A model generated the notes under the pieces. The model saw nothing but the letters and a program-made list of their open reading frames with translations. It ran no database searches and was not told the origin of the DNA. 41,950 bases of DNA from the IMG/VR virus record IMGVR_UViG_3300017963_000420, positions 1 through 41,950 of that record. One strand, 5' to 3'. Shown here in pieces: positions 1 to 41,950 of the stretch. The stretch comes from a virus. Positions within the stretch are counted from its first letter, which is position 1, and each line of letters begins with the position of its first letter. The position numbers and the translations under genes were made by a program.

Positions 1-44
1 GCACGATTTTTGCACAGACGCATTTCACCGGAGACAAAATCCAA
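1..44. other. Left-end non-coding region before terS
   Basis: Forty-four bases containing ACAGACGCA (14-22) and GGAGA (30-34), the latter being the ribosome site for terS. No coding frame is evident. Probably the other half of the packaging region. Confidence 0.5.
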
Positions 45-464
45 ATGGGACAGCGCGGACCGAAACCGATGCCCCGGAACATGCGCCTGGTCACCGGCGA
101 GACCAGGCCATCCAGGACCAACGAGGATGAACCGGTTCTGCCGGTCAAGATTCCCGACCCGCCTGAACACCTGACGGACCAGGAGTCCGACAAGTTCATC
201 GAGGTCGCCGGCAAACTCGCGCGGATGCGCGTGATCAGTGAAGTCGACGCCGACGCGGTTGCGATGTACGCAGTCGCCTGGTGCCGGATGCTGGAAGCGG
301 ACGAGAAAATCCGCGAAATGGGCGCGGTCGTCATCGCGTCGAAAGGTGCCCTGTCACACAATCCCTGGATCGCCGTTTCGAACAAATGTCGGGCGGACTG
401 CAAAGCGATCCTGTCCGAGTTCGGGATGACGCCGAGTTCCAGGACACGCGTCAAAGCGACATGA
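45..464 (+). CDS. terS: Terminase small subunit, P27 family
   Basis: 139-residue protein that begins with the RGPKP-type basic motif (residues 4-8) and continues with a proline-rich stretch and a helical core, which is the pattern of P27-type small terminases. It should bind the packaging site and load the large terminase onto DNA. Its length is normal for the family. The ATG at 45 lies shortly after a GGAGA ribosome site (near 30-34). Its stop overlaps the next start (ATGA at 461-464), so it is co-translated with the large subunit. The HNH gene at 41507 would lie directly upstream if the genome ends join, an arrangement common in HK97-like cos phages. Confidence 0.9.
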   Translation: MGQRGPKPMPRNMRLVTGETRPSRTNEDEPVLPVKIPDPPEHLTDQESDKFIEVAGKLARMRVISEVDADAVAMYAVAWCRMLEADEKIREMGAVVIASKGALSHNPWIAVSNKCRADCKAILSEFGMTPSSRTRVKAT

Positions 465-2155
465 TGGACGAACTGCGGGAGTCGGCACCGCACGTTTTCA
501 AGGCGGTCCAGTATGCGACCCAGGTCACGGACGGCACCCTGGTCGCGTGTGAACTGACACGCCTGGCAGCGCAGCGATTCCTGGACGATCTGGAGCGCGA
601 GGACGCGCCCTGGTATTTCAACACCGCTTCCGCCGAACGCGCCTGCCGCTACATCGAAAACCTGCCGCACATCAAAGGCGAATGGGCGAAGCGGCGCGAA
701 CTCCTGGTCCTGGAACCCTGGCAATGTTTCATCGTCTGCAACGTGTTCGGTTGGTTGCTGGTCGCGGACGACACCAGGCGTTTCCGGATGGCATACATCG
801 AGGTCGCCAGGAAAAACGCGAAATCCACCCTGGCGGCGGCGATTGGTTTGTACATGCTGGACGAGGATGGCGAGGCCGGCGCGGAGGTTTACAGTGCCGC
901 GACCACCCGAAACCAAGCCAAAATCGTGTTTGGCGTTGCCCAGGAAATGGCCAGGCGCACGCCGGAACTGCCCCTGGAGGTACGCGCGCACAACATCGCC
1001 AGGACCGATATGGCGTCGAAATTCGAAGCGTTGCACGCCCAGGGCGAAACGCTCGACGGTCACAACATTCACTGCGCGATCAACGACGAACTCCACGCCT
1101 GGAAAAACCGCGCCGTTTACGATGTCCTGGAGACCGCAACCGGTTCCCGCGTGCAACCGCTGATGTTCAACATCACCACCGCAGGCAACGACACGTCCGG
1201 AGTCTGTTACGACGTGCGGCGATATTGCGTCCGACTCCTGGAGGGGCACGCCGAGGACGATTCGGTGTTCGCGTTGATCTATACCCTGGACAAAAACGAC
1301 GACTGGTCGGACCGCGAGGTATGGCCGAAGGCGAATCCGAATTACGAGGTCAGCGTTTACCCGCTCGACCTGGAGGCGTTGTGCCGGAAGGCGACCGAAG
1401 TCGTCAGCCAACAGAACGCGTTCCTGACGAAGCGGATGAACGTGTGGGTCAACGCTGCGGAAGCCTGGATGAACATGCGGCAGTTCGAAGCGTGTTTCGA
1501 TTCCACCCTGGACCTGGCGGATTTCGAAAAGGAACAAACCTGGGCGGGAATCGACCTGGCGTCGAAAATCGACGTGTCCAGCCAGGCGCAGATATTCGCC
1601 AGGGAAATCGATGGCCAGGATCATTTGTTTTGCTTTATGCGGCATTGGCTACCGGAGGCCGCCGTCGAGGAAGACCCGAACGGTGTTTATGACGGTTGGG
1701 TGCGCGGCGGTCACATCCGGACGACGCCAGGCAACGTGATCGACGTGGATCGCATCGAGTCGGACACCCTGGAGGAAGTCGCCGCACCCTTCGACCTGGA
1801 ATGCCTGGCAATCGATCCTGGCCACAACTCGACGCAGTACGGCGTGCACATGGCGCAGGAATTAGGACCGATTGTTATCGACGTGCGTCCGACGGTGTTA
1901 AACTTTTCCGAGGCCATGAAGTGGCTGGAGGCATACGTCAAGGATGGACGGTTTCACTACAACTGCCCGGTGTTGACCTGGATGGTCAGCAACGTTGAAG
2001 TGAAGCGCGACCACAAGGACAATATTTATCCGAGGAAAGGCGCGGTAAACCGGAAAATCGATGGCGTGATTGCGCTGCTAATGGCGGTCAACCGATACCG
2101 TCTCGCTGCCGACAACGTGACGATATACGAATCTCGTGGAGTGATTACCGTATGA
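461..2155 (+). CDS. terL: Terminase large subunit (ATPase/nuclease)
   Basis: The DNA-packaging motor, 564 residues from ATG 461, chosen because it overlaps the terS stop in the ATGA pattern; the open frame itself extends further upstream without support. Visible motifs: Walker A-like ARKNAKST at 116-123, Walker B INDELHAWK with D209/E210, and a C-terminal RNase H-type nuclease with acidic residues D365 (GIDLAS), D452 (AIDPGH) and D534 (KIDGVIALL). This is the HK97-type (Terminase_1) pattern, which together with P27 TerS and a nearby HNH gene points to cos packaging. It ends in an ATGA overlap with the portal gene. Confidence 0.96.
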   Translation: MMDELRESAPHVFKAVQYATQVTDGTLVACELTRLAAQRFLDDLEREDAPWYFNTASAERACRYIENLPHIKGEWAKRRELLVLEPWQCFIVCNVFGWLLVADDTRRFRMAYIEVARKNAKSTLAAAIGLYMLDEDGEAGAEVYSAATTRNQAKIVFGVAQEMARRTPELPLEVRAHNIARTDMASKFEALHAQGETLDGHNIHCAINDELHAWKNRAVYDVLETATGSRVQPLMFNITTAGNDTSGVCYDVRRYCVRLLEGHAEDDSVFALIYTLDKNDDWSDREVWPKANPNYEVSVYPLDLEALCRKATEVVSQQNAFLTKRMNVWVNAAEAWMNMRQFEACFDSTLDLADFEKEQTWAGIDLASKIDVSSQAQIFAREIDGQDHLFCFMRHWLPEAAVEEDPNGVYDGWVRGGHIRTTPGNVIDVDRIESDTLEEVAAPFDLECLAIDPGHNSTQYGVHMAQELGPIVIDVRPTVLNFSEAMKWLEAYVKDGRFHYNCPVLTWMVSNVEVKRDHKDNIYPRKGAVNRKIDGVIALLMAVNRYRLAADNVTIYESRGVITV

Positions 2156-3435
2156 ATCTTTTCCGACCGTCGACCTGGTTCGAACGCAAATCAACGACTT
2201 TGACACTCGACCAGGCGGTGCAACGCTTGATGTTGTTGCGCCAAACGGTGTCCGGTGAACTCATCACGCCGGAAACCGCACTCCAGGCACCGACCGTTTT
2301 CGCAATTGCGACCGCCCTGTCCAGGGCGACGGCGATGCTGCCTTTCACGGTGCAAAAGGACGAGTCCGAACCTGGGAAACGCCAGGTGACGACGCAGGAT
2401 CAACACGCACTGATGCGACTAATGAAACGTCCGAATCCCTGGATGACGCCGTTCGAATACTGGTCCCTGGTAATGACCCGCCTGGCATTGCATGGCGAGT
2501 TTTACGCCGTGAAAAACCAGGCGACGAACGGACGGATCACCGCCCTGGTGCCGGTCGCACCTGGCAGCGTGGACGTGCAGCAAGGCAACACCGGACGCCT
2601 GACGTTCAACGTGACGCCGCCGAACGGCGAACCGATGGAAGTCACGCAGGAGAAAATGCACCGGATCGTGATGTTTTCGACCGACGGCATTCGCGGCACG
2701 TCGCCGGTTCAGCAGTGCAAAGAATCCATCGCAATGGAAATCGCTGCCGAAAAGTTTGGCGCTGCGACGTTCGGGAACAGCGCGATCCCGAATGTCGTGC
2801 TGACAATGGAGGGGCATTTCAAGGATGACGAGGCCGCGAAGCGTTTCAAATCATCCTGGCAGGACGCGTTCGGTGGCAAGAAACGCGGAACCGCCGTCCT
2901 GGAAGACGGGTTGAAAGTCGAACCGCTACAGATGAACAACGAGGAATCGCAATTCCTGGAAACCAGGAAACTGCAACGCTCTGTGATCGCCGGTGCCTGG
3001 GGCGTGCCGCCGCACGTCGTCGGCGACCTGGAACGCGCAACGTTCAGCAACATCGAGGAACAAACCCTGCAAATGCTCGTCGGCACCATGCAACCGTATC
3101 TGACCGCCATCACCAGCGCGTGCGACCGCGACCTGTTGTCGCAATCGGATCGCGACCAGGGCGTGTTCACGGAGTTCGACACAAAAGCGCGACTCCTGGG
3201 CGACGCGAAGTCGAGGGCGGAAGCGTTACAGATTCAACGCCAGAACGGGATCATCAGTGCGAACGAATGGCGAGCGATGGAAGGAATGGACGCCAGGACG
3301 GACGAAGGCGGCAACGATTACATCACGCCGTTGAATTTCCGAATCGAGGACGACGACGGATCGGTCGAAGTCGATCCAGACAATCCCGACGACGAAAAAC
3401 GTCGTGTACTTGGAACGTTCCGCATCGTGGCGTAA
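2152..3435 (+). CDS. Portal protein, HK97 type
   Basis: 427 residues with the HK97-type portal pattern: an N-terminal helical part, the wing region with MTRLALHGEFYAVK near residue 110, the conserved SPVQQCKESI segment near 183-192, and the late motif GVPPHVVGDLERATFSNIEEQ (about 282-302), followed by a variable acidic tail. It forms the twelve-subunit ring at the packaging vertex. The start overlaps the terL stop. After the stop there is a 42-base gap holding a short terminator-like hairpin before the protease gene. Confidence 0.95.
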   Translation: MNLFRPSTWFERKSTTLTLDQAVQRLMLLRQTVSGELITPETALQAPTVFAIATALSRATAMLPFTVQKDESEPGKRQVTTQDQHALMRLMKRPNPWMTPFEYWSLVMTRLALHGEFYAVKNQATNGRITALVPVAPGSVDVQQGNTGRLTFNVTPPNGEPMEVTQEKMHRIVMFSTDGIRGTSPVQQCKESIAMEIAAEKFGAATFGNSAIPNVVLTMEGHFKDDEAAKRFKSSWQDAFGGKKRGTAVLEDGLKVEPLQMNNEESQFLETRKLQRSVIAGAWGVPPHVVGDLERATFSNIEEQTLQMLVGTMQPYLTAITSACDRDLLSQSDRDQGVFTEFDTKARLLGDAKSRAEALQIQRQNGIISANEWRAMEGMDARTDEGGNDYITPLNFRIEDDDGSVEVDPDNPDDEKRRVLGTFRIVA

Positions 3436-3444
3436 ACTCCCGAC

Positions 3445-3465
3445 CAGGCACCCGGCCTGTTTTTT
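3445..3465 (+). terminator. Short terminator-like hairpin between portal and protease
   Basis: CAGGC (3445-3449) pairs with GCCTG (3455-3459) around a 5-base loop and is followed directly by six T (3460-3465). The stem is only 5 bp, so termination would be partial. It precedes the ribosome site CGGAGCG of the protease gene. Confidence 0.45.
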
Positions 3466-3477
3466 CGGAGCGAAAGC

Positions 3478-4107
3478 ATGTTGCAAAAAGGCCAGGCATT
3501 CGGCGTCGAGGTCAAGGACGTGACCAGCAAAGGCGATGTCGCCGGTTACGGGTCCGTCTTCAATAACGTCGACCAGGGATACGACATCGTAGAACCTGGA
3601 TCATTCGACAAATCCCTGGGCGAACGCGGTCTCCCGAAAATGCTTTTCGGTCACGATCACTGGTCGCCGCCTATCGGCAAATGGAACGTGGCGAAGGAAG
3701 ACGACCACGGTCTATATCTGGAAGGCGAATTGAATTTGCAAAGTCAGATGGGCAAGGAAGTCCACGCCGGTCTGAAAATGGGAACGATGGACGGTCTGTC
3801 CATTGGGTTCCTGATGAAAGATTACGAAATTGCCGAGTCGGGGATTCGGCACATCAAGGAAGCCGATTTGCTGGAGGTTTCCGTTGTCACCTTTCCGATG
3901 AACGAACTGGCGCGCGTCGATGCCGTCAAGAATCGGATTCAACAGGGAATCAGCAAACGGGAACTGGAGTGGATTCTGCGGGACGCAGGGTTCACCCGGT
4001 CACAAGCCAAGGCGTTTATTTCGCGAGGCTTTAACGGACTGTCGCAGTGCGATGCTGTTGACGAGGACGAAATCGACCTGGACCTATACCGGGAAATTTT
4101 TACGTAA
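3478..4107 (+). CDS. Prohead maturation protease, HK97 family (S78/U35 type)
   Basis: 209 residues. The family signature is clear: GYGSVFNN at 23-30, LFGHDHWSPPIGKW at 56-69 with candidate catalytic H59, DGLSIGF at 105-111 with candidate nucleophile S108, and LLEVSVVTFPMN at 131-142 where E133 may complete the triad. It would cleave the N-terminal delta domain of the capsid protein and itself during head maturation. The ATG at 3478 follows CGGAGCG. It lies directly before the capsid gene, as expected. The C-terminal 60 residues are polar and variable. Confidence 0.94.
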   Translation: MLQKGQAFGVEVKDVTSKGDVAGYGSVFNNVDQGYDIVEPGSFDKSLGERGLPKMLFGHDHWSPPIGKWNVAKEDDHGLYLEGELNLQSQMGKEVHAGLKMGTMDGLSIGFLMKDYEIAESGIRHIKEADLLEVSVVTFPMNELARVDAVKNRIQQGISKRELEWILRDAGFTRSQAKAFISRGFNGLSQCDAVDEDEIDLDLYREIFT

Positions 4108-4119
4108 CGGAGAACAGTT

Positions 4120-5436
4120 TTGGACATCAAGGAACTGAAATCCCTGCTCGACGGCATCAAAACGAATTTCGAGGAATTCAAGAAGACGAACGACGAGCGA
4201 ATCGACGCCATTGAAAAGGGCAATGGCATTGCCGAGGTAACGGAAAAACTGGAGAAAATCGAAGCGGACATCGCTTCCGACGAAACCAAGTACGACACCA
4301 TCATCGCCGAAGCGAAGGCGTTGCAGGATCGTCTGGAGGAATTGGAAGGCGCGTTCGACGGTTTCCAGATGACGAACCCGAAGGAAGGGAAGTCGAAAGA
4401 AACGGTCGAATACGAGAAAACGTTCGAAGCGTATCTTCGGTCCTGCAACCAGGTGAAGGGCGGCGACCCGACCATCCAGAAGCAACTGCGAGACCAGGAA
4501 AAAGCACTCCTGGAGTCGAAGGATTTCACGACGACCGTGAACGCTTCGGGTGGCTATGCCGTACCGGAAGACATTTCGACGATGATTCACGATCAGATGC
4601 GACTACTGTCGCCGCTGCGTGCACTGTGCCGTGTCGTCCAGGTCGGAACGCCGGACTATAAGGAACTTGTCAACATCCACGGCGAAAACAGTGGATGGGT
4701 CGGCGAGACGGGAACCAGGAATCAAAGCACGACTCCGAGTTTCCGCGAGCGCGCCCCGACGAGTGGCACCCTGTACGCGTACCCGCGCGCGACGGAGGAA
4801 TCAGTCGATGATGTCTTTTTCGACATCGGCGGCATGATTGTCGACGTAACGTCCACGGAGTTCGCCATCGCGGAGGCCATCGCGTTCCTTTCGGGCAACG
4901 GAACCAACAAGCCGACCGGCATGTTGAACACCGCACCGACGACCGACACCGACGACGCATCGCCGGCACGAAACGCCGACGCGTTCGAATACATCGCCCT
5001 GGACTCGTCTTCGCCGACGACTGCAATCGATCCGGATCGCCTGATCGACCTGGTGTATCGACTCCGCGCGCCGTATCGGGCGAACGCTTCCTGGATTATG
5101 AATTCCCTGACGATGGGAACGATCCGGAAACTGAAAGACGGGCAGAATCAATACCTGTGGGCACCTGGTCTCCAGCCAGGCCAGCCGGCATCCCTGCTCG
5201 GTTTCAGCACCAACGCCATCGAAGCGATGGACGACGCGGACACGGTGGGTAACCATCCGCTGGCGTTCGGCGACTTCCGTCGCGGCTACCTGATCGTTGA
5301 TCGGGTCGGTCTGCGGATCACGGTGGACGACAACATCACGACTCCCGGATATATCAACTGGTACATCCGGAAGCGCGTCGGTGGCATCGTCCTGGACAAC
5401 AACGCCGTCAAGTTCGGCAAGTACGCGTCCAGCTAA
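4120..5436 (+). CDS. Major capsid protein, HK97 gp5-like, with N-terminal delta domain
   Basis: 438 residues from a TTG start at 4120, supported by ACGGAGAA at 4106-4113. Residues 1 to about 120 are highly charged and helical, typical of the scaffolding delta domain removed by the protease. The mature HK97 fold follows: NASGGYAVPEDI near 141-152 (start of the N-arm/E-loop region), then P-domain and A-domain sequence ending in GGIVLDNNAVKFGKYASS. Because there is a delta domain and a protease gene, no separate scaffold gene is needed. Two hairpins follow the stop codon immediately. Confidence 0.95.
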   Translation: MDIKELKSLLDGIKTNFEEFKKTNDERIDAIEKGNGIAEVTEKLEKIEADIASDETKYDTIIAEAKALQDRLEELEGAFDGFQMTNPKEGKSKETVEYEKTFEAYLRSCNQVKGGDPTIQKQLRDQEKALLESKDFTTTVNASGGYAVPEDISTMIHDQMRLLSPLRALCRVVQVGTPDYKELVNIHGENSGWVGETGTRNQSTTPSFRERAPTSGTLYAYPRATEESVDDVFFDIGGMIVDVTSTEFAIAEAIAFLSGNGTNKPTGMLNTAPTTDTDDASPARNADAFEYIALDSSSPTTAIDPDRLIDLVYRLRAPYRANASWIMNSLTMGTIRKLKDGQNQYLWAPGLQPGQPASLLGFSTNAIEAMDDADTVGNHPLAFGDFRRGYLIVDRVGLRITVDDNITTPGYINWYIRKRVGGIVLDNNAVKFGKYASS

Positions 5437-5446
5437 CATCGGAACG

Positions 5447-6124
5447 ATGAAGGCATCGGAGCGGGGCGGCCTTTTTGGTCGCCCCGTTTCTGTTGGGGTT
5501 CCCCAACGCTACACGGACGGCACCGCCGTCATCATCGCGACCGGACCGTCCCTGACCAGGGAACAGGTCGACAAGTTCGCGCCCCTGAAACGCAGGAATC
5601 GGATCGTCGTCATCGGCGTCAACGACGCGTATCGGATTTGCCCCTGGCTGGACTATCTGTACGCGGCGGACTTCAACTGGATCGCCCATCACGACGCCCA
5701 GGTGCCGAAGCGACTGCGCGGTGGGTTCCTGTTCACGACACGCGACGAGCGGACGAACCAGTTTGCGTCCTGGCGACAGGTCGAGTCGAAAGCCGCGCAA
5801 GGGTTGTCCCTGGATCGCAACTTATTGCATCGCGGCAACAACTCCGGATACCAGGCAATCAACCTGGCGTATCTCCTGGGAATCCGGCGAATCCTGCTCC
5901 TGGGGTACGATCATCATTCCGGTGGCCATCACTTTTTCGGCAAACACCCGACGCCGGCGATGGACATCGAGTCGAATTATTCGAATTGGGTGCCTGGATA
6001 CCGCACGATCCGCGACCAGGACATCGATTTGACCATTGTCAATTGCACGCCTGGTTCAGCGATTGACGCTTTCCCGAAACTTGACATCGATGCGGCCATC
6101 GATTGCCTGGAGTTAAAAACATGA
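5447..6124 (+). CDS. GPSL-motif sugar-metabolism protein (DUF115/MptE-like; often called norphogenetic protein)
   Basis: 225 residues from ATG 5447, the only ATG before the conserved region; its ribosome site is weak. Motifs: IIATGPSLTREQ (29-40), the ATGPSL signature of DUF115/MptE-like Rossmann proteins linked to glycan or nucleotide-sugar chemistry; NNSGYQAINLAYLLG (131-145); and LLGYDHH (151-157) followed by a His-rich HHFFGKHP. Homologues are common in phage structural clusters with glycosyltransferases, but the reaction is not established. The first gene of a three-gene cassette with the methyltransferase and glycosyltransferase below. The capsid terminator hairpin overlaps its first codons, an odd feature that suggests low expression. 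Confidence 0.7.
   Translation: MKASERGGLFGRPVSVGVPQRYTDGTAVIIATGPSLTREQVDKFAPLKRRNRIVVIGVNDAYRICPWLDYLYAADFNWIAHHDAQVPKRLRGGFLFTTRDERTNQFASWRQVESKAAQGLSLDRNLLHRGNNSGYQAINLAYLLGIRRILLLGYDHHSGGHHFFGKHPTPAMDIESNYSNWVPGYRTIRDQDIDLTIVNCTPGSAIDAFPKLDIDAAIDCLELKT
5462..5494 (+). terminator. Intrinsic terminator after the capsid gene, inside the next reading frame
   Basis: CGGGGCGGCC (5462-5471) pairs with GGTCGCCCCG (5477-5486), a 10-bp stem with one G-T pair and a TTTTT loop, followed by TTTCTGTT. The stem is strong and GC-rich, but the T tract is interrupted. It lies only 26 bases after the capsid stop and within codons 6-16 of the following gene, so it would lower expression of downstream genes relative to capsid. 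Confidence 0.65.
5492..5507 (+). repeat. Second hairpin, tandem to the capsid terminator
   Basis: GTTGGGG (5492-5498) and CCCCAAC (5501-5507) form a perfect inverted repeat with a two-base centre. It follows the terminator hairpin within 6 bases and may stabilise the 3' end of the capsid message or shield the start of the next gene. Confidence 0.5.
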
Positions 6125-6678
6125 ATCACCCGGAAAAATGGAAGTACGACGCGGCATACGAAATCGAAACGTATCGCATGGGACCGAAGCGAGTCGCGGC
6201 AGCGAACGAATGGATCGGAAGCCTGGACCCGGACGGTCGTTCATATCTGGATGTCGGCACCGGTCGCGGCGAAACCCTGGATTGGGCGGAACGTCGCGGG
6301 ATGCTCGTCCAGGGCACCGAACTGGTGACCGAACTGTGCGACGGCGAGCGGATCATTTACGCCGAAATGGAATCACTGCCGTTCGATGATCACGCGTTCG
6401 ACTACGTGTCGACATTCGATGTTGTCGAACACTTGCTGCCGGAAAATACGCAGCAATGCCTGGACGAACTGTTCCGGGTCACGAAACGCGAACTGTGCAT
6501 CAGTACCAACGACCGCCCGTCCAGGTTGCCTGATGGGACGGACCTGCACATCAACATCCGTTCGCGCGACGAGTGGGAAAATGATTTGGTCGAGCGCGTC
6601 AACGCACGCGGCGGCAAAATCTTTTTCAGCACGTTCGGACTCGCGCAACACGACTGGATGTGGCGGATCGAACTGTGA
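6121..6678 (+). CDS. Class I SAM-dependent methyltransferase (small molecule or sugar type)
   Basis: 185 residues from ATG 6121, which overlaps the previous stop (ATGA) and has GGAG at 6109-6112; a TTG at 6103 is less likely. Motif I is LDVGTGRGE at 43-51, the acidic ribose-binding residue is E67, and a motif LPFDDHAFDYVSTFDVVEH follows at 86-104, matching the Methyltransf_11 group. It lacks the PCQ and ENV motifs of cytosine-5 DNA methyltransferases and the DPPY motif of N6-adenine enzymes, so a DNA target is unlikely. Its position between two sugar-related genes suggests methylation of a glycan or sugar. Confidence 0.8.
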   Translation: MNHPEKWKYDAAYEIETYRMGPKRVAAANEWIGSLDPDGRSYLDVGTGRGETLDWAERRGMLVQGTELVTELCDGERIIYAEMESLPFDDHAFDYVSTFDVVEHLLPENTQQCLDELFRVTKRELCISTNDRPSRLPDGTDLHINIRSRDEWENDLVERVNARGGKIFFSTFGLAQHDWMWRIEL

Positions 6679-7508
6679 TCGGTCACCTGTACTACAAGCC
6701 CGGACAAGGGCATCAACTGCACGCGATGGAATGCCTGGCAGCGGGACTCCAGGAACACGGAGTCGCGACCATCATTTCACCGTATTGGGACCTGACCGAA
6801 AACGTCGATTTCGTCGTTTGTTGGGGCGACAAGGTGCCAGCGAACATTCGACTCCCGCGCCTGATTTTGGAAGCGGGTTACATCAACGGGCAGTCGGGCG
6901 AATACGTCCTGGATCGCCTGCGATTCGTGTCTGCCGGGTGGAACGGATTGCATGGCCGCGCCGATTCGGGACCGCTCGACTGCCCACCAGACCGATGGAA
7001 CGCCCTGGACGAACCGATCCTGCCCTGGCGTGCCGACGACGGCGAATACGTGCTGATATGCGACCAGCACCCTGGCGACCAGTGCAGCGGTCCGCGCAAA
7101 TGGTGGAAGCCAATCGCCGACGACCTGGCGCACTTCCGCGTCGTGTATCGACCGCATCCGTTGTTCGCACCGAACCAGCGTCCATTGTCCGAGGCGTTGG
7201 AGGGTGCCGGCCTGGTCGTTACCTGGTCGTCAACCTGCGCGATCCGTTCCGTCCTGGACGGCATTCCGACGATTGCCCTGGATCGCGGGTCGATGGCATA
7301 CGATGTCGCGTCGCAGTCGATTGACGACGAAGTGTATTTGGGTCCACGCGAGCAATGGGCATACAATCTCGCGTATCGACAATTCACGCACACGGAACTG
7401 GCGGACGGGATTGCCTGGGAGGTTTTGAAAAATGGGATTGCGACGGACAACCGCACCAGTGAACGAACCGGTCACGATGACGGAGGCGAAACTACACCTG
7501 CGGGTTGA
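6675..7508 (+). CDS. Capsular-polysaccharide-type glycosyltransferase (GT-B-like)
   Basis: About 277 residues from GTG 6675, chosen because it overlaps the previous stop (GTGA); GTG 6660 is an alternative. Features: N-terminal GQGHQLHAMECLAAGL (10-25), a region LEAGYINGQSGEYVLDRLRF followed by GWNG (65-91) resembling KpsS-like capsule synthesis proteins, YRPHPLF (158-164), and the C-terminal nucleotide-sugar pattern TWSSTCAIRSVLDGIPTIAL (183-202). It probably transfers a sugar to a glycan or protein; donor and acceptor cannot be read. Its last 77 bases overlap the connector gene in another frame. Confidence 0.65.
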   Translation: MIGHLYYKPGQGHQLHAMECLAAGLQEHGVATIISPYWDLTENVDFVVCWGDKVPANIRLPRLILEAGYINGQSGEYVLDRLRFVSAGWNGLHGRADSGPLDCPPDRWNALDEPILPWRADDGEYVLICDQHPGDQCSGPRKWWKPIADDLAHFRVVYRPHPLFAPNQRPLSEALEGAGLVVTWSSTCAIRSVLDGIPTIALDRGSMAYDVASQSIDDEVYLGPREQWAYNLAYRQFTHTELADGIAWEVLKNGIATDNRTSERTGHDDGGETTPAG

Positions 7509-8034
7509 TCACGACGAGGAAGACGACGCGATTCGCACGTACATCGCCAGCGCGCGCGCCTGGGTCGAGGAATACACGAACCGCGCACTGATCAACCAAA
7601 CCTGGCAAATGACCCTGGCGGATTTCCCGCTGCGGTATCCATTCGAAATCGCGCTGCCCCTGGGTCGATGCTCGGCGATCAATTCGATTGCCTACACGGA
7701 CAGCGACGGCAATCCGCAAACGCTGACAGGTCCGACGAGTGGATCGCCTGCCGGCACCGATTACCAGGAAGATTTGTCCAGCGACGAGGGTGCCAGGATA
7801 CGACCACCCGTTGCCGGCGAATGGCCATCCGTCCAGGACGAAGCGATCCAGCCAGTCACCGTCGAATTCGTCGTCGGTTATGGCGCGAAGTCGTCCGATA
7901 TGCCTGACGCGATCCGAACTGCCGTCCTGTACCGCCTGACCGACCTGTACGAATACCGGGGATCGGTCGATGGAAACGGGACCGGCAACGCGAAGATGCA
8001 GGCGAGTCACTACAGGTTGCGGAAATTCGACTGA
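7432..8034 (+). CDS. Head-tail connector (phiE125 gp8 / HK97 gp6-like)
   Basis: 200 residues. The N-terminus TTAPVNEPVTMTEAKLHLRV (6-25) matches the conserved opening of the phiE125 gp8/gp6-like connector family, which confirms ATG 7432 even though it overlaps the glycosyltransferase gene by 77 bases; GGGAGG lies upstream near 7418-7423. The core AYIASARAWVEEYTNR-type helix and late IRTAVLYRLTDLYE helix are also typical. The protein attaches below the portal and forms the adaptor ring. It ends in a TGATG junction with the next gene. Confidence 0.9.
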   Translation: MGLRRTTAPVNEPVTMTEAKLHLRVDHDEEDDAIRTYIASARAWVEEYTNRALINQTWQMTLADFPLRYPFEIALPLGRCSAINSIAYTDSDGNPQTLTGPTSGSPAGTDYQEDLSSDEGARIRPPVAGEWPSVQDEAIQPVTVEFVVGYGAKSSDMPDAIRTAVLYRLTDLYEYRGSVDGNGTGNAKMQASHYRLRKFD

Positions 8035-8360
8035 TGCCTGGCAAATACCGACATCGGGCGACACTGGAACAGCGGACGACATCGCTGGATTCGTATGGCG
8101 AGGATTCCCGATCCTGGACGCAACTGGCGAAGGTGTGGGCGACCCTGGAGGCGGTAACCGCTTCCGAACGATTCGAATCGCAACAGGTCCAGGCCGACGT
8201 GACGCACCGGATCACGTTCCGTTTCGCCGAAGCGTATTTGTCCGGCATGGGACCGGAGGACCGCATCACAATCGAAGGGCGCACGTTCGAAGTGATTTCC
8301 CTGGTGGATCGCAAAGGACGCGAGCGCGAAATCGAAGTGATCGCCGTGGAAAGGCAATAG
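8034..8360 (+). CDS. Head closure / head-tail adaptor protein (SPP1 gp16-like)
   Basis: 108 residues with the small beta-barrel pattern of the head-tail joining family: RHRATLEQ at 6-13, a central QLAKVWATLEAVTASERFESQQ, and the late GRTFEVISLVDRKGREREIEV. Such proteins close the head channel after packaging. ATG 8034 overlaps the preceding TGA, and the next gene begins directly after the stop. Confidence 0.9.
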   Translation: MPGKYRHRATLEQRTTSLDSYGEDSRSWTQLAKVWATLEAVTASERFESQQVQADVTHRITFRFAEAYLSGMGPEDRITIEGRTFEVISLVDRKGREREIEVIAVERQ

Positions 8361-8849
8361 ATGGCCGACGTTGAATTACAACTCCGCAACCTGGGCAATC
8401 TCCAGGACGTGCTGAAAAAGGTGCCGCGCAAGGTCGCGAACAAACACGTCCGCCAGGCGACTGTCGAGGGTGCCAGGCGTGTCCGCGATTACATCAAGGT
8501 CACGGCACCGGTGCGCGACGGGTCGGTCACCGCATACCGCAAGAAACAGCAACGCCCGCCGCCTGGTCGACTGCGCCGCCTGGTGAAAGCGAAAACCAGG
8601 CGCGGCAAACGCGGATACCAAAAGGCGTCCGTCTACTACCCGACGGCAGGCGCGGGCAACGATCCGAAAAATGCGTTTTATTGGCGGTTCCTGGAGTTCG
8701 GCACGAAGCACATGCCACCGATCCCGTTCGTTAGCGTCGCCGCCGACACGATGTTCCGTCCCGTCGTCAATCACATCATCAAGCGAATCAACACTGGCGT
8801 CCGCGCGGAAATGTCGGACGCTCGTCGGAATAGGGTGGATAAATTATGA
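8361..8849 (+). CDS. HK97 gp10-like tail completion / neck protein
   Basis: 162 residues, very basic. The pattern of helical N-terminus, VEGARRVRDYIKVTAPVRDG (34-53) and the C-terminal FYWRFLEFGTKHMPPIPFVS (near 106-125) is characteristic of the HK97 gp10 family. It joins tail to head. The start abuts the previous stop codon, and the last four bases overlap the next start (ATGA). Confidence 0.92.
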   Translation: MADVELQLRNLGNLQDVLKKVPRKVANKHVRQATVEGARRVRDYIKVTAPVRDGSVTAYRKKQQRPPPGRLRRLVKAKTRRGKRGYQKASVYYPTAGAGNDPKNAFYWRFLEFGTKHMPPIPFVSVAADTMFRPVVNHIIKRINTGVRAEMSDARRNRVDKL

Positions 8850-9253: not shown

Positions 9254-9260
9254 TTGAAAA

Positions 9261-9674: not shown

Positions 9675-9694
9675 ATCGAGGAAACTAAATCGAA

Positions 9695-26245: not shown

Positions 26246-26281
26246 AAGCCTGGGCGACTGCTATTCCCCAACAAAACGGAA

Positions 26282-28601: not shown

Positions 28602-28617
28602 CAACGGAGAAAATCGA

Positions 28618-34746: not shown

Positions 34747-37700
34747 ATGGCCGACAAAACCAGGTACACGAATTCCGGAACAACGGGCAATCAGTACGCG
34801 TCCGTCGGTGAAACCTGGGCGGCACTTCCGTCGGGATGCTTCCCGACCCAGGCGGTGCAAACGTTCGGCACGTTCAGTTCAACGACCAACATTTGGACGG
34901 CACCGTCATCAAACCTACCTGATGCCGTCCTGATCCTGATGTCGCTGACCGGCGACGACACGTCGAACGGTCGGTCGAATTTATGTTTGCGGGCGGTCAA
35001 CGATTCCGGCACCGGCACCATCATTTCCGCGCAGGGCGGCGGTTACTCCAGGGACACGTCCGAGGACCAATTGACCGCGCGTTCCTGGGCGGTGATCGAC
35101 AGTCCTGGCGCGTCGTCAACCTGGGAAATCCAGGGCATCACCGGCACCGACGATCCTGGCACCGGCGACGAGTTCGTCAACGGATCGGTCGAATTTATCC
35201 CGATCTACTATTCCGCCATCGGCCTTTACACCAGCGGCACGACGCAGACTTTCACCGGCACGTCGTTCACCAGGGCGACGGGTTGGAGTGCATCGGTTCA
35301 ATCCGACACGACCGCCATCGAATTGGGCGCGACGACTTCCAACGTCATCGACTGCAAAAACAACGGCAAACGATACCTGGTACTCGGCGGCGCGTATTTC
35401 AATTGCTCGGTGGGTCGCACGCAGCGCGTCGCCAACATCCGGCGCGATAGCGTAAACAGCGCCCAGGGCGTGATGTACCTGCGCTCGTCGTCCGTCGGCG
35501 AAATGGGAACGCCGATGTATGACCTGTTCGAAGGCGGCGCGTCCGCCATCGGCGTGGACATGGCGATTTGTCGCGGCATCGGCGTCGCGGCCAGGCAGGG
35601 CGGCGCGGACATTGATGGCAGTGTGACGACCGCCGACACCGAACTCGTCCTGGCGATTATCGAACTCAATGACAGCGCCGAAGTAATTCGGTCGCACTCG
35701 ACCAGTCAGCAGGAATGCGCGCTCACCGGTCCGGTGGACATCAACGCGCACGATGTTGTCGACTTGAATGACTCGGCGTCCTACACGAAAGCCAGCGCGA
35801 CGGCAGTCAACGTCGAAACCGCGCACGACGCCCTGGTCCTGGCGAACAACAACTGCCCGCGCAACGCGGGTGCCATCGGGTCCGGTTCCAGGTGGACCGC
35901 GTTCGGTCACATCACTTTGAACGGCACCGAACTGGCGTCGTCCGAGGATTGCGATTACAACCGAGGCAACCAGTCGACCACCGACACGCATGGATGGTCG
36001 ACGCATCCAGCGACGGTCGTCACGGTCGCAGTCAACGACGACCTGGGCGTGTCCATTACGGAACGCGTCGGAACGGAAGGCGGTGCCGGCGACATTGAAA
36101 CGGAACCCTTCGCGAACAACGAAGGCATGTCGTTCATCGCCATCAACCTGGACACCCTGGCGGACTCCGGTGTCAGCGCCAGCGGCGGCGCAACGATGGG
36201 TGCGGTCGAGGCCAGCGGCACCGCCACGAATCACATCGAGGCAAGCGACGGAACGCCGTCCCTGGCAGCGGTAACCGCCGCAGGCACCGCGAAAGTCGTG
36301 AAGCGGACCACCGCTGCCGCCGCTACGCTCGCCGCCCTGACCGCCGCAGGCACCGCCGACGTGCAGACCGGACCGGATGTCACGGCGTCCGGTGGTGGCA
36401 CCCTGGCGGCAATCGAGGCATCGGGCGGCGCTTCCCTGGCGCAGCAAGCGTCCGACGGCACGCCGACCCTGACTGCCCTGGAAGCCGCAGGCACATCGAA
36501 ACGCGTGATCGTCGCGTCCCTGGAGGACGACGCGGACGAGGCAACCGATTTCACAGATTACGAAAACGGACCTGGCGGATACGCGAACCTGGCCATCGCG
36601 TCGGGCAAATACCAGGACGACACCGGGTTATCGACCAACGCCGCCAGGAGAAACGACCGCACGTTCGCGGACGATCAGTGGGCGGAAATTGAAATCGACA
36701 CTGCCCTGGATACCGACAACGCGTATTTCCAGGTATTCACCCGATTCCAGGCGGCAGCGGCGGGCGCGTACATCGGCGTCATCCAGCCGCAGGACGACGG
36801 CACCTGCGATTTGTGGATCGAGGAATACGACGGATCGTCCTGGACGAACATTTCCGGCACCGTGTCGATCACGCACGACCTGGCTGACGGCGACACCCTG
36901 CGGATCGAGGTCCAGGGCGACCGGCAGCGTTTGTATTTCAACGGCACGTTGTATTGCCTATCGACCGACGCCAGTCACGCAAGCGGCACGCCGGGACTCG
37001 GCATTAACCGCAACAACGCCACGACCGCCACGGACAACCAGGTCGAGCGGTGGACGTTCGGCAACCTGGTCAACGTGCCCGGCCTGGAAATCGCCGGCAC
37101 CGCCAAGGTCATCAAAAACGCCAGTGATGGAACGCCGTCCCTGGGCGCAGTCGAGTCATCAGGCACCGCCAGCAAATACGACAAGCCGGAAACGTCCGTC
37201 CGGGTGTCATTCCCGACGCCGACGTATCCGCCGAAAGTCGGCGCGGACGAGCAAAAATTCAAAGCCTACGTCCGCAAGGATGCGAGTGGCGGCACCGACC
37301 CGACGTTGCGCGCGTACCTGTACGAATCCGGAGTCCAGCGCCAGGATTTGGGAACGGTCACGGTCACCAGCGAAACGGGTGTCCTGGTCTCCTGGACCTG
37401 GAACGCGACGAACCTGACAGTCGCCGACGGATCGGATGTCGAGGTTCTAATCGAAGTCGACACGATGGGCACCGGCAGCAATCGCCGGACCGTCGAATAC
37501 GGTGCAATCGAGTGGTGCTGCGTCTGGAGTTCAGCGGCGACGGGTGCTGCCACCCTGACCGCACTCACGGCGAGCGGTACTGCCAAAACTGTCAAGGCCG
37601 CAAGCGATGGAACGCCGACCCTGGCAGCGTTGGAAGCGTCTGGAACGACTACGCTGCGGCGGCAGGCATCTGACGGAACTCCCACCGTCCCACTACCTGT

Positions 37701-40700
37701 CGGCGACGGCGAGGCGTCGTCCAATATCTCGGCATCGGGTGCGGCTACCCTTCCCGCGCTGGAGTCGAGCGGAACGGCGACCGTCGTCCGCCAGGCGAGC
37801 GATGGAACACCCGCACTGTCACCAGTCAGTGCGGCGGGTACGGCGACGAATCACCGTACCGCCACGGATGGCACACCTACACTCGCGCCCGTCGAGGCCG
37901 CAGGCACCGCCGACATCACCGGCGTAATCACTGCGAGCGACGGCGCACCCGAAGTCCCGGCGCTAACCGCTGCCGGCACCACTACGCTGACCAGGCAGGC
38001 CAGCGGCACGCCATCCATTCCCGCAATAGAGGCGGCAGGCACCGCTGACACCGGTGGATTCCGAACTGCGTCGGGCAATGCCGACCTGACGTTGCCGGTC
38101 GGTGCTGGCACCGCGTCGCTGATCAGGAGTTCCAGCGGATCGGCAACGATCCCGGCAGTGGAGGCATCAGGCACCGCCACCAGGAGAATCCAGGCCAGGA
38201 CATCAGGCCGCAGGAACGAAATCGAATGGTCGAATGACGTTTCGAACGTCGCCTGGATCGAATCCGGCCTGGCGTCCAGGACGGCGAACAGGATTGTCGA
38301 GGACACGTCCACCGGCACGCACCTGATTCAAACCAGCGGCTATTTCACCGACGGCGTTGGCGTTGTCACCACGATCAGTTTCGAAGCGAAGGCGGACGGT
38401 CGCGATTCCATCCTGGTCCGGACGGCGGCAGCGGGATACCCGAACAACGTCGGCAAGTATTTCAACGTCAGTTTGGGCACCCTGGGCAACAACTATTCGC
38501 TCGCGCCGGATGCTGCCTACATCACGCCGGTTGCCGGCGACCCTGGATGGTATCTGTGCGAAATGGTCCTGACTGCGGACCAGTACAACGGCAACACCAG
38601 GGCGATCATCGGAATGGCCGATGGCAACGTGTCGTCCTATACCGGCGACGGCACCAGCGCCATCGAAATCCGCAAAGTCCAGGTCGAGCAATGGGCGGAC
38701 AGGCGGACCGACTACATCGAAACGACCGACGCGTCCCTGTTGGTCGAGGCACCGGAAATCCCTGGTGTCGAAGCATCCGGCCAGGCGACCAAACAGATCG
38801 AGGCCAGCGACGGCGCACCTGAAACGCCTGTCCTGGTCGCCAGCGGTGATGCGAAGGCATACACGCGATTTGATGCGAGCGGCACTGCGACGATTCCGGT
38901 GCTGGTGGCAAGTGGTACATCCAAAGTCGTCAAAAAAGCGTCTGGAACGGTTTCTGTGCCGTCAGTGGGCGCAAATGGCGTTTCCACTCGGCGCATTTAC
39001 GCCGGCCTGAATTGGTTCGATCCGCCCGAAACGTTCCTGGACGACTTCAATCGCGCTGACGGTCCTATCGGCAATTCCTGGGACGACTGGATTCCCGCTG
39101 GCTACGCGATCCCGGACATCGTGTCGGGGCAACTGCCCCTGCCGGTTTCCCTGGCGTTTGTTGGCGCGCATCGCGAGAACGGTCACGGACCAGCGCAGTT
39201 TGCGGAAATCGAGGTCAACAACTGGACGTATGTTTCCAACAATTCCGACACCGCGCCCTGGGTGCTGGTGCGCGGATCGGCGGATATGTCGCTGAACAAC
39301 GAGTCGGGATATTTCGGATATTTGTATTCGGACACCGACGGATCGACGGTTGCTGAACTGTATCGGTGGGACCCGAATTATTCTTACACCAGTTTCGGCA
39401 AAACGGTCGTCCTGCCGCATTCGAACGTCCCGGACGGCACGATCATTCGCATGGTCGCCAATGGCAACCGGATCGAGCAGTGGATCAATTGGGGTGGCGT
39501 TTCTGACGGGTGGACGTTCATCCATGCGGTGATCGACTCCACGTACCCGACGCAAACCAGGGTCGGTTTCGGTAACGACTCGTATGTGATCGGGGCGACC
39601 CTGGACAATTTCAGATCGGGCGACCTGGGACCAGGACCGCAAATGACGGTGCCGGTCGGCGACGGATCGATCAAGCGATACATTTCCGCCGACGGGCGTG
39701 GACGTTGCAATCGCGCCCTGGAGTTCGATGTCGAAGGCAGGGACCAGGGCGGCACCTGGTCGCATTGGTCGAATGCCGTCGATGATCTGACACCGGTCAC
39801 CGGGTTCAATCACGGCATCAAAATCGACAACGTTGGCGGCACGATCAATTCCTATGCCTACGGACCAGGCGGCGGACCGAATGGCGGTTTCCTGGGTGCG
39901 ATCCCTGCGGGAATGAAAATCCGCATGTCTGCCTACGTCGAAATGTTGGATGGCAGCGAACCGATGTGGAAGGGCGTCGATCCGAATCCAGTGGACGCCG
40001 GTTTCACGATGAACAGTTCGTGGTCCGGCACTGACGACGCCCTGCAAACGCAAAAGGAAAACGTTTGGGGCAACGTGTGGCGCATTTCGACATTCCGGGA
40101 AAGCAACGGCGGCAGCAATTACGGCGTCCTGAAATACTCCTGGAATTCGACCAGGGCGTTCCGGATCACCGGTTGGCAAATCGAGGAAGTCGCAGACAAG
40201 TTCCAGCCGGCATCCGACCCGATCATCACGACCGGCGAACACCTTTGCGTAATCGATGTCCCGCAAATCCAGGCAACGGGGCACGTCACCAGGGGCGAAG
40301 ACGGAACGATTTCACGCGTCGTTCCGCTGACGGGTATATTCGATTTCCGTGTTGTCGGCCTGGTTGGATTGTTCCCAGGACCGGCAGTGTTCCAGGACGA
40401 TTTCAACCGATTGGGTCCTGCCCTGGGCGTTCCCTGGGAACACGTTGGAATGGAAGTGCCGGACGGGTACATCCTGCCGCAGATCGACACCGGTGGCGCT
40501 TTCGTGCCTGGCAATCCGATCAGCGATCCGACGAACGGCGTGAACGGTTACGCCATTGGCGCGTACAACCAGGAATTGTCGGACGACCACTCTGTGATCC
40601 TGACCATCGGCACCATTGACGAAGCGGCATCGCCAATCGTGTGGCCTTGGACGCGCGCTGCCTGGGATGGAAGCGGCGAGAACCAGCGCGGATATTACTG

Positions 40701-41145
40701 CTACACCTACCCCTGGAGCGGGACGGTGTATTTCGACGTGTATCGATGGGAGTCGCCCAGGACGTACACGTACATCGGCGGCGGTGATCTGCCGGCAGCA
40801 TTCGGCAACCTGGCTGGATCGCAGATTCGATTCGAATCCATTGGCGATCAGCACGCCGCCTATTGGCGCGCATCCACCAGCGATCCGTGGACGCAGGTTG
40901 GCACGACGGTCACTGATGCGACGCACTCCGACGGGAAAACAGGGTTCGGTGTGGAACAGTTCACGACGGACAACGATGTTCGGATTCGTGAGTTTTACGC
41001 AGTCGAGGCACCGAGGTTCGGACTTGATCTGGAGGGCGAGTTCACGGATGCGCCTGTCGATGGTGTGTTCGATCCTGATTCCGACCTGGAAGGAACGTTC
41101 GATCCAGACCGTGTTGTTCCTGGCAAGGGTGATCCAGTAGACTAA
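34747..41145 (+). CDS. Giant modular adhesin-like protein (2132 residues) with about 23 short repeats and lectin-like domains
   Basis: No signal peptide. Order of parts: unknown N-terminal beta region (1-470); repeats of about 20-25 residues with consensus ASDGTPTLxALEASGTAT (474-589, 777-814, 932-1153, 1334-1418); a ConA/LamG-like domain (590-776); a beta-sandwich (815-932); carbohydrate-binding-module-like domains (about 1154-1333 and 1632-1831); two more ConA-like domains opening with DDFNR at 1432 and 1884; an acidic, Gly/Pro-rich tail. The repeats alternate Ala/Gly/Thr with a Pro-Ala-Val-Glu core and look like flexible spacers. The protein is probably a virion fibre that binds several glycans. 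Only the family-level reading of the lectin-like parts is inference. Confidence 0.7.
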   Translation: MADKTRYTNSGTTGNQYASVGETWAALPSGCFPTQAVQTFGTFSSTTNIWTAPSSNLPDAVLILMSLTGDDTSNGRSNLCLRAVNDSGTGTIISAQGGGYSRDTSEDQLTARSWAVIDSPGASSTWEIQGITGTDDPGTGDEFVNGSVEFIPIYYSAIGLYTSGTTQTFTGTSFTRATGWSASVQSDTTAIELGATTSNVIDCKNNGKRYLVLGGAYFNCSVGRTQRVANIRRDSVNSAQGVMYLRSSSVGEMGTPMYDLFEGGASAIGVDMAICRGIGVAARQGGADIDGSVTTADTELVLAIIELNDSAEVIRSHSTSQQECALTGPVDINAHDVVDLNDSASYTKASATAVNVETAHDALVLANNNCPRNAGAIGSGSRWTAFGHITLNGTELASSEDCDYNRGNQSTTDTHGWSTHPATVVTVAVNDDLGVSITERVGTEGGAGDIETEPFANNEGMSFIAINLDTLADSGVSASGGATMGAVEASGTATNHIEASDGTPSLAAVTAAGTAKVVKRTTAAAATLAALTAAGTADVQTGPDVTASGGGTLAAIEASGGASLAQQASDGTPTLTALEAAGTSKRVIVASLEDDADEATDFTDYENGPGGYANLAIASGKYQDDTGLSTNAARRNDRTFADDQWAEIEIDTALDTDNAYFQVFTRFQAAAAGAYIGVIQPQDDGTCDLWIEEYDGSSWTNISGTVSITHDLADGDTLRIEVQGDRQRLYFNGTLYCLSTDASHASGTPGLGINRNNATTATDNQVERWTFGNLVNVPGLEIAGTAKVIKNASDGTPSLGAVESSGTASKYDKPETSVRVSFPTPTYPPKVGADEQKFKAYVRKDASGGTDPTLRAYLYESGVQRQDLGTVTVTSETGVLVSWTWNATNLTVADGSDVEVLIEVDTMGTGSNRRTVEYGAIEWCCVWSSAATGAATLTALTASGTAKTVKAASDGTPTLAALEASGTTTLRRQASDGTPTVPLPVGDGEASSNISASGAATLPALESSGTATVVRQASDGTPALSPVSAAGTATNHRTATDGTPTLAPVEAAGTADITGVITASDGAPEVPALTAAGTTTLTRQASGTPSIPAIEAAGTADTGGFRTASGNADLTLPVGAGTASLIRSSSGSATIPAVEASGTATRRIQARTSGRRNEIEWSNDVSNVAWIESGLASRTANRIVEDTSTGTHLIQTSGYFTDGVGVVTTISFEAKADGRDSILVRTAAAGYPNNVGKYFNVSLGTLGNNYSLAPDAAYITPVAGDPGWYLCEMVLTADQYNGNTRAIIGMADGNVSSYTGDGTSAIEIRKVQVEQWADRRTDYIETTDASLLVEAPEIPGVEASGQATKQIEASDGAPETPVLVASGDAKAYTRFDASGTATIPVLVASGTSKVVKKASGTVSVPSVGANGVSTRRIYAGLNWFDPPETFLDDFNRADGPIGNSWDDWIPAGYAIPDIVSGQLPLPVSLAFVGAHRENGHGPAQFAEIEVNNWTYVSNNSDTAPWVLVRGSADMSLNNESGYFGYLYSDTDGSTVAELYRWDPNYSYTSFGKTVVLPHSNVPDGTIIRMVANGNRIEQWINWGGVSDGWTFIHAVIDSTYPTQTRVGFGNDSYVIGATLDNFRSGDLGPGPQMTVPVGDGSIKRYISADGRGRCNRALEFDVEGRDQGGTWSHWSNAVDDLTPVTGFNHGIKIDNVGGTINSYAYGPGGGPNGGFLGAIPAGMKIRMSAYVEMLDGSEPMWKGVDPNPVDAGFTMNSSWSGTDDALQTQKENVWGNVWRISTFRESNGGSNYGVLKYSWNSTRAFRITGWQIEEVADKFQPASDPIITTGEHLCVIDVPQIQATGHVTRGEDGTISRVVPLTGIFDFRVVGLVGLFPGPAVFQDDFNRLGPALGVPWEHVGMEVPDGYILPQIDTGGAFVPGNPISDPTNGVNGYAIGAYNQELSDDHSVILTIGTIDEAASPIVWPWTRAAWDGSGENQRGYYCYTYPWSGTVYFDVYRWESPRTYTYIGGGDLPAAFGNLAGSQIRFESIGDQHAAYWRASTSDPWTQVGTTVTDATHSDGKTGFGVEQFTTDNDVRIREFYAVEAPRFGLDLEGEFTDAPVDGVFDPDSDLEGTFDPDRVVPGKGDPVD
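36166..39003 (+). repeat. Array of about 23 related 20-25-residue repeats in four blocks
   Basis: Units recur at 36166-36513 (5), 37075-37188 (2), 37541-38205 (10) and 38746-39003 (4), with two more isolated copies near 39642 and 40249. DNA-level copies share GAGG/CGATGGAACGCCG-type words, so they arose by duplication. They separate the folded domains of the 2132-residue protein. Confidence 0.75.
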
Positions 41146-41150
41146 CCGGC

Positions 41151-41507
41151 ATGGGACAGGCACCGACACATCAATCGTTCCCGGTAATGAGTGGCGACCA
41201 GGTATCGCTGCCGATCACGGTGGTCGATAACGACGGCAACATCGTTGACCTGACAGCAGGGACCGGGCAATTCAAGATGGCACGCACGCCATCCAGTTCG
41301 CCCGTCATTGACAGCACGTCGTCACCTGCCACGGCAACCATCGACATCAGTCAACCGTTGCAGGGACTTATGACGGTCACCATCACCGACGAGAACACCG
41401 ACGCCCTGGAAGGCGATTACTACTACGAGGCCAAGTTCACGGACACGTTGGGACGCGAGGCAGTCGTCGCCCGTGGATGGATCACGTTCGAACCTAACCT
41501 GACTTAG
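41151..41507 (+). CDS. Small beta-rich tail-fibre-associated protein
   Basis: 118 residues from ATG 41151, five bases after the giant gene. The sequence VMSGDQVSLPITVVDNDGNIVDLT and a late LEGDYYYEAKFTDTLGREA resemble BppU/tail-fibre N-terminal domains that attach fibres to the baseplate. It may dock the giant protein to the particle (inference). The TAG overlaps the next GTG (TAGTG). Confidence 0.6.
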   Translation: MGQAPTHQSFPVMSGDQVSLPITVVDNDGNIVDLTAGTGQFKMARTPSSSPVIDSTSSPATATIDISQPLQGLMTVTITDENTDALEGDYYYEAKFTDTLGREAVVARGWITFEPNLT

Positions 41508-41899
41508 TGCCCCACAAACTGAAACGCCCCTGCACGTATCCAGGTTGCGCTGCCCTGGTGGACAGTGGACGTTGTAGCCAGCATCCCTATCCCGAACGAC
41601 CACGCAACAGAGCGAGCGCGCATCGGCGTGGATACGACACGACCTGGCACAAGGCACGATCCGTCAAACTGAAACGCACGCCATTCTGCGAATACAGGAT
41701 CAAGTGCCGTGGTGCCCAGGCGACGGAAGTGGATCACATCAAGCCACTAAGCCAGGGCGGAACACACGACCAGGCGAATCTGAAATCAGCGTGCAAACCC
41801 TGCCACTCCTGGAAGACCAACACGCAGGACCGTCCCAAAAAGAAACAAAGCGATGACCGCCCTGGTCGAAGCGAACGACCGCCGATCCGTTTCATCTAG
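41507..41899 (+). CDS. HNH endonuclease next to the terminase genes
   Basis: 130 residues from GTG 41507 (TAGTG overlap). Zinc ligands PCTYPGC (8-14) and RCSQH (22-26) precede a linker HRRGYDTTWHKAR (39-51) and the HNH core TEVDHIKPLSQGG (73-85) with NLKSACKPCHSWK (91-103). This is the terminase-associated HNH of HK97-type cos phages, which helps cut DNA at cos. It is at the right end of the window, while terS is at the left end, so the two would be adjacent in a joined genome. Confidence 0.9.
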   Translation: MPHKLKRPCTYPGCAALVDSGRCSQHPYPERPRNRASAHRRGYDTTWHKARSVKLKRTPFCEYRIKCRGAQATEVDHIKPLSQGGTHDQANLKSACKPCHSWKTNTQDRPKKKQSDDRPGRSERPPIRFI

Positions 41900-41950
41900 T
41901 GCACACGACAAGGGGGGGCGGTTAAGATAGCTGGAGGGCGTGCTACAGAC
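41900..41950. other. Right-end non-coding region, candidate cos/terminase-site side
   Basis: Fifty bases after the HNH gene contain a run of seven G (GGGGGGGCGG near 41911-41920) and end in ACAGAC. With the 44 non-coding bases at the left end, this would place the packaging region between the HNH and terS genes. Joining the ends creates ACAGACGCA, which occurs again at 14-22, 19 bases away. Confidence 0.45.

Follow-up and report, generated by a model that had tools for sequence, protein, structure and literature searches.

Layout and CCWGG content of the window

The stretch of DNA analyzed here (the window) is the whole of IMG/VR record IMGVR_UViG_3300017963_000420, a 41,950 bp contig of a tailed phage, an uncultured siphophage, with a structural operon, a minus-strand operon and a block of replication and accessory genes (Table 1). 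Its distinguishing feature is the five-base word CCWGG (CCTGG or CCAGG), which is strongly over-represented along its entire length. The contig is linear and without terminal repeats, its start falls within or close to TerS, and a few kb may be missing. A megablast search with the first 20 kb against 50,697 phage records returned no near match.

An exact count of the window gave 331 CCTGG and 235 CCAGG, a total of 566 CCWGG sites (13.5 per kb), and 78 CCSGG sites (39 CCCGG and 39 CCGGG). Relative to base composition, CCWGG is present at 4.36 times and CCSGG at 0.42 times its expected frequency, and CTWGG is reduced to 0.11 of expectation. The initial annotation had reported a genome-wide, W-specific excess from hand counts in four blocks, and the full count bears this out. 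Those block counts were correct to within one (18:1, 17:2, 13:2 and 9:0 for CCWGG to CCSGG), but the blocks are denser than the genome average, so that the real excess is 4.4-fold at 13.5 per kb rather than the six-fold at 20 per kb originally given. A maximal-order Markov comparison, suggested at that time as a check, predicts 414 CCWGG sites, leaving a 1.37-fold excess in which CCTGG and CCAGG are the two most over-represented 5-mers; we regard this figure as a lower bound, as the null is over-conservative because its 4-mers are already inflated by CCWGG itself.

Spacing of the sites is Poisson-like, with a variance-to-mean ratio of 1.00 for counts in 1-kb intervals, a mean gap of 74 bp and a longest gap of 462 bp, and the sequence flanking the sites is unconstrained. 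A spacing-dependent function is ruled out by this distribution, which is compatible with an additive benefit per site, though not specific to such a benefit. The recombination or protein-binding motif proposed in the initial annotation gains no support from the spacing and flanks. The excess extends outside the genes, with six CCWGG and no CCSGG sites in the intergenic stretch between the divergent operons.

Table 1. Coordinates of features in the window
Feature	Position	Strand	Remarks
TerS/TerL	contig start in or near TerS		
Structural operon	446..18969	+	TerL, portal, protease, HK97-type capsid, glycan-like cassette, tail genes, tape measure, tail fibre J; CCWGG-enriched along full length
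Tape measure	10241-12097		
J-like fibre	13748-18520		
Minus-strand operon	21510..25925	-	YqaJ exonuclease, phrog_1362 protein, small genes
YqaJ exonuclease	21510-22214	-	
phrog_1362 protein	24377-25528	-	
Intergenic/regulatory stretch	25926..26281		356 bp, between divergent operons
Replication/accessory genes	26282..30083	+	DUF5843, PagL-like, HNH-like, replication initiation protein, RusA; CCWGG-enriched
2132-aa ORF (open reading frame)	34747..41145	+	no family match; 90 CCWGG

Codon choice, near-miss sites and other words

The long ORFs of the window were compared with a null of synonymous codon shuffling, in which both the proteins and their codon usage are preserved. These ORFs contain 506 CCWGG sites against about 177-180 in the shuffles (2.8-2.9-fold, z = 29.5) and 69 CCSGG sites against 157. 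Among all palindromes of four to six bases tested, CCWGG is the lone extreme positive, the next reaching z = 7.0, and it is enriched 2.3- to 10-fold in every codon phase. The same preference is apparent in individual amino acid contexts. Leucine between C and G is encoded by CTG in 144 of 145 cases, compared to 45% elsewhere, and glutamine in this position by CAG in 74 of 75. Proline preceding glycine is encoded by CCA or CCT in 37 of 43 cases (86%) versus 57 of 302 (19%) elsewhere, and arginine following an xCN codon (Ala, Ser, Thr or Pro) takes the rare codon AGG, which completes CCAGG, in 48 of 102 cases versus 19 of ~370 elsewhere; a second tally of such arginines puts AGG at 39-42%, compared to ~4% at other positions. 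CCGGG in another phase is not avoided (12 versus 5.6). Overall, 64% of the contexts able to encode CCWGG do so, compared to 23% in the shuffles. Plus-strand genes use 65% of their opportunities (23% in shuffles) and the minus-strand operon 56 of 93, or 60% (26% in shuffles); the effect is therefore independent of the direction of transcription, and the initial annotation was right to place the excess in non-coding DNA and in both operon directions. It was also right that codon usage is not the sole cause: an origin in codon usage or in composition was rejected by the shuffling and context tests. A generic avoidance of AG/CT, with CCWGG as its refuge, was likewise rejected, as CAG and CTG contexts are near normal and the Pro-Gly and arginine choices show attraction to the word.

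The number of one-base synonymous near-misses remaining in the window was also compared with the shuffled expectation, in seven classes, and all seven are depleted, transversions included. At the inner base the ratios are 0.05-0.06 for T>C, 0.17-0.47 for A>C and 0.21-0.32 for G>C; changes of the central S to W stand at 0.20-0.22, outer A>C at 0.20, and outer G>C and T>C at ~0.45. Since every class is depleted, the attractor is the whole CCWGG word, a pattern that can be due either to selection or to a repair drive that keeps any mutation to CCWGG. In a related phage that avoids CCWGG (G002, see below) most classes exceed 1 (1.2-1.6), and just two fall short of it, outer A>C at 0.82 and inner T>C at 0.84; in the closest relative, G001, the classes are mixed. 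Vsr acts on T:G mismatches, converting CTWGG to CCWGG, and is able to produce the inner T>C class only; depletion of the other classes means that the very-short-patch repair bias offered in the initial annotation is insufficient on its own. Two phages of Dcm+/Vsr+ Escherichia coli point the same way, with CCWGG over synonymous shuffles at 0.56 in lambda (where the inner T>C near-miss ratio is 0.10) and at 0.81 in HK97, and Vsr alone is ruled out as the cause. These results show that the CCWGG word itself is under strong directional pressure at the DNA level, genome-wide, at each base, on both strands and outside genes as well.

The window otherwise avoids most GC-rich palindromes. Compared to synonymous shuffles, GGSCC occurs once versus 90, AGCT seven times versus 66 and CGATCG once versus 27; many six-base palindromes are absent, among them CCGCGG, GGCGCC, CGGCCG, CCCGGG, CTGCAG, GGATCC, GGTACC and CAGCTG. 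The host or hosts of this phage probably carry many restriction systems. The ratio of the AG/CT dinucleotide is 0.59. In the plus-strand genes outside 21510-25925, CCTC is absent against 83.5 expected by codon shuffling, whereas its complement GAGG is not (137 versus 120), and in the sense of the minus-strand operon CCTC is normal (7 versus 7.3). AGTTG (0 versus 14.5) and GTCAGG (0 versus 8.1) show a similar one-strand avoidance; the closest relative lacks it for CCTC (118 versus 173). This pattern is reminiscent of phage T7, which retains Type III sites in a single orientation, or of a pressure acting at the RNA level.

Relatives of the phage and bacterial genomes

Among whole relatives the closest is IMGVR_UViG_3300022723_000019 (G001), which shows synteny over ~30 kb, has 65% amino acid identity in alignable regions and shares the replication/accessory region from 27.2 kb onward. 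In this phage CCWGG is present at 0.41 times expectation and 6% of opportunities are used. An alignment of 19.4 kb contains 261 CCWGG sites in the window versus 21 in G001, with ~10 at shared positions. At 154 motif positions where the encoded residues are identical, CCWGG is found 96 times in the window and six times in G001, and thus the difference between the two phages is purely synonymous there. More distant relatives go further: G002 (53 kb) has four CCWGG sites in all, using 0.4% of its opportunities (0 of 47 Pro-Gly contexts and 2 of 412 leucine contexts), L008 and L145 use 0%, and the available DNA of L003, L008, L014, L025, L030 and L142-L145 contains no CCWGG with CCSGG at 0.4-1.7 times expectation. 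Four of these, related through the J fibre at ~53% identity (L142, positions 1-6360; L143, 1-5141; L144, 1-4714; L145, 1-14974), have CCSGG at 0.9-1.7 times expectation and are clean examples of W-specific avoidance. Relatives are not uniformly low, as the 4.6-kb fragment L004 has CCWGG at 2.24 times its raw expectation, though just 1.31 times over shuffles. Two side observations were made among the relatives: apparent recoded stop codons in L002 proved to be an artefact of the alignment start, and G005 and G006 (L038-L041) show strong strand asymmetry of other words, such as 16 GTTG versus 300 CAAC and two GTTGC versus 110 GCAAC in G006.

These comparisons show that the pressure on CCWGG is lineage-specific. 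The relatives that have no CCWGG and retain CCSGG suggest that the guild of hosts includes some with defences directed specifically at CCWGG, and from the complete elimination of CCWGG in several of them we infer that, for this phage group, it is a word over which defence and phage contend. On the theory of restriction avoidance, CCWGG-specific restriction is probably a familiar threat to the group, to which the window is an exception of opposite sign. Avoidance of EcoRII-type CCWGG sites involves the same word, the same phages and the same use of synonymous choice, with near-total or total loss in relatives; the window instead accumulates the word toward saturation.

Relatives of TerL in bacterial genomes reach at most ~50% identity, and are scattered among beta-, gamma- and alphaproteobacteria, in Burkholderiales, Nitrosomonadales, other gammaproteobacteria and some alphaproteobacteria; no prophage relative above ~50% TerL identity was detected among bacterial genomes. 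A survey of clusters of three CCWGG sites in 369 genomes of one GTDB class yielded a best density of 721 per Mb, in a genome of ~69% GC, versus 906 per Mb in the window. Genomes with high raw CCWGG do occur (2.3-3.1x in G027 and 2.8x in G336), but CCWGG-rich bacterial segments are enriched just 1.2-1.6-fold over synonymous shuffles, compared to 2.8-fold in the window, and show no strong depletion of CCSGG. The CCWGG richness of the bacterial genomes examined in detail is mainly codon usage. CCWGG-rich bacteria with neither a PF00145 cytosine-5 methyltransferase nor Vsr include G027, G110, G310, G336 and G323, with shuffle ratios of 1.2-1.6; a tie between CCWGG-rich bacteria and either enzyme was rejected, as in this small sample the link is absent or inverse. 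Two surveys of triple-site density proved to cover a single GTDB class. JASGCM01 (G013, L052/L074), titled Alphaproteobacteria, yields the GTDB class sample that Limnobacter (G011) yields, and its title is probably mis-assigned. The cultured Pseudomonas phage Lebethron (L170), whose host is Pseudomonas taiwanensis, is a weaker case of CCWGG excess, with 314 sites versus 200 in shuffles (1.57-fold).

Several genes of the window are of interest in their own right. A cassette at 5483-7508, located between the capsid and tail-completion genes and kept in G001, contains an MptE-like gene, a Methyltransf_11 S-adenosylmethionine methyltransferase and a DUF6716 glycosyltransferase-like ORF, with a possible role in capsid or surface glycan modification. 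The only methyltransferase-like ORF found in the window (6118-6678) is this class-I Methyltransf_11 protein rather than a PF00145 member, and a phage-encoded cytosine-5 methyltransferase was rejected on these grounds. The PagL-like lipid A 3-O-deacylase at 27482-28015 (PF09411, 28.7 bits, over the cut-off) possibly functions in lipopolysaccharide remodelling or superinfection exclusion on a Gram-negative host. By its position and size, the 2132-aa ORF is a probable tail or receptor-binding protein.

Interpretation of the CCWGG excess

Because the pressure is lineage-specific, its likely source is the particular host of this phage, in which something appears to reward CCWGG rather than punish it. 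We tentatively favor a reading, possible but well short of probable, in which CCWGG methylation by the host is a self-mark and extra sites bring better protection, in the manner of DISARM. The host would methylate CCWGG to mark its own DNA, and if methylated CCWGG restrained its defence, as has been suggested for DISARM, every added site would be protective and selection would run toward saturation rather than avoidance; the modifying enzyme would have to come from the host. It is conceivable, though to be held with more reserve, that the phage evades such a defence by saturating its recognition word instead of deleting it, so that host methylation labels the phage DNA as the host's own; this would be restriction-site avoidance in reverse. 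Class 2 DISARM, through its methylase DrmMII, methylates CCWGG as its self-mark and still inhibits phages without the motif (PMC5957327), and the ATPase activity of DrmAB is reduced by 5-methylcytosine, with DISARM targeting ~10-fold stronger when cognate methylation sites are lacking (PMC9142583). As DISARM acts on motif-free phages and is reportedly restrained by methylation, avoidance would be useless against it and accumulation helpful. Neither a DISARM gene nor a host came to light in this analysis, and the link is proposed from the shared word and the mechanism described in the literature. A gross excess of a short palindrome in cyanobacteria goes along with gain of its methyltransferase (PMC4390886). 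Among the causes listed in the initial annotation, active maintenance for modification comes nearest to the self-mark reading, except that the enzyme would be the host's.

Several points weigh against methylation as a self-mark. No PF00145 match is present within the window, and hence no phage-encoded cytosine-5 methyltransferase, in agreement with the initial annotation. Seven of eight CCWGG-rich bacterial genomes lack both a PF00145 methyltransferase and Vsr, and four of six genomes free of CCWGG triples do carry PF00145; this side-survey is small, confounded by GC content and based on draft genomes, those examined in detail being just 1.2-1.6-fold enriched over shuffles, and it speaks against a general methylation-driven origin. 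The DISARM of another host marks other motifs (PMC9142583). Targeted literature searches, with subscription papers and preprints outside their scope, recovered no phage with CCWGG-type site accumulation, which is weak evidence. We know of no published phage that accumulates sites in such a manner. Finally, a mutational or repair drive retaining any change to CCWGG would give the same sequence picture.

The excess may instead be a signature of the host genome, a doubtful though not negligible prospect in which CCWGG saturates the host's own chromosome, for example by a ratchet like that of the highly iterated palindromes (HIP) or by Chi-like use, and the phage mirrors it through shared mutation and repair or shared function. 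Bacteria with high raw CCWGG, the 1.57-fold excess of Lebethron and the saturation of some cyanobacteria with short palindromes (PMC4390886) are in keeping with this, but the modest shuffle ratios of the CCWGG-rich bacterial segments and their lack of strong CCSGG depletion are not, nor did any of the 369 genomes of one class in the triple-site survey match the window. The HIP elements of cyanobacteria (HIP1, GCGATCGC, and the exceptional GGCGCC, rCCGGy and GCsGC genomes; PMC4390886) are the closest parallel, each being a short palindrome hugely over-represented genome-wide, far beyond codon usage, as CCWGG is here by its z-score, phases and intergenic sites; the word of the window is likewise unique among palindromes and recognized by known methyltransferases. 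The window differs in being viral, in its five-base word, in its 13.5 sites per kb versus ~1 per kb, and in having close relatives with few or no sites. It was not classified as HIP because its genome has no cognate methyltransferase; the excess is known here from phage sequence and not from a cellular chromosome. Rather unlikely is a role of CCWGG as a functional binding or processing site, either a Chi-like signal that restrains the recombination nuclease of the host or a site for a nucleoid protein: the even, Poisson placement fits an additive per-site benefit and the YqaJ exonuclease indicates that end-processing matters to the phage, but the syntenic relative G001 has the same recombination gene with CCWGG at only 0.41x. 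Known Chi sites are directional and non-palindromic, and a Chi-like signal would be expected to show strand bias with replication or packaging, unlike the symmetric CCWGG with its unconstrained flanks and similar enrichment in both operon directions.

A CCWGG-specific repair or mutation drive without benefit to the phage, whether Dcm/Vsr or a methyl-directed mismatch-repair ratchet as suggested for HIP1, seems improbable. The deepest near-miss depletion is in the Vsr-correctable inner T>C class, matching the scarcity of CTWGG, but lambda has a comparable depletion with no CCWGG excess, and the class is not diagnostic. The Dcm/Vsr system of enterobacteria acts on the same word, lowering CTWGG and raising CCWGG modestly; it predicts a mild effect confined to T>C, whereas transversion and center near-misses are depleted here as well and lambda and HK97 lack an excess. 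Most CCWGG-rich bacteria lack Vsr and PF00145, and the HIP ratchet model saturates near 1 site per kb (PMC4390886), far below the density of the window. Least credible, and very unlikely in our view, is an indirect origin, with CCWGG the sole option left open by codon usage, by dinucleotide bias or because other restriction words are avoided. The many avoided words, GGSCC and AGCT among them, and the low AG/CT ratio would agree with this, but proline before glycine shifts to CCW while CCGGG is tolerated in another phase, arginine shifts to a rare codon, and the excess over shuffles is z ~30.

Phages are known for losing restriction words. In this phage most protein-permitted positions are filled with CCWGG while sister phages erased it, which implies selection on one and the same word in the opposite direction. 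Should CCWGG prove to be a host self-mark, its accumulation would represent a strategy, written in the sequence itself, for countering DISARM and other defences that read methylation, and such defences would be predictable from phage genomes alone. If a repair drive is responsible, the window would show, conspicuously and on a large scale, the kind of ratchet that has been put forward for HIP sequences.

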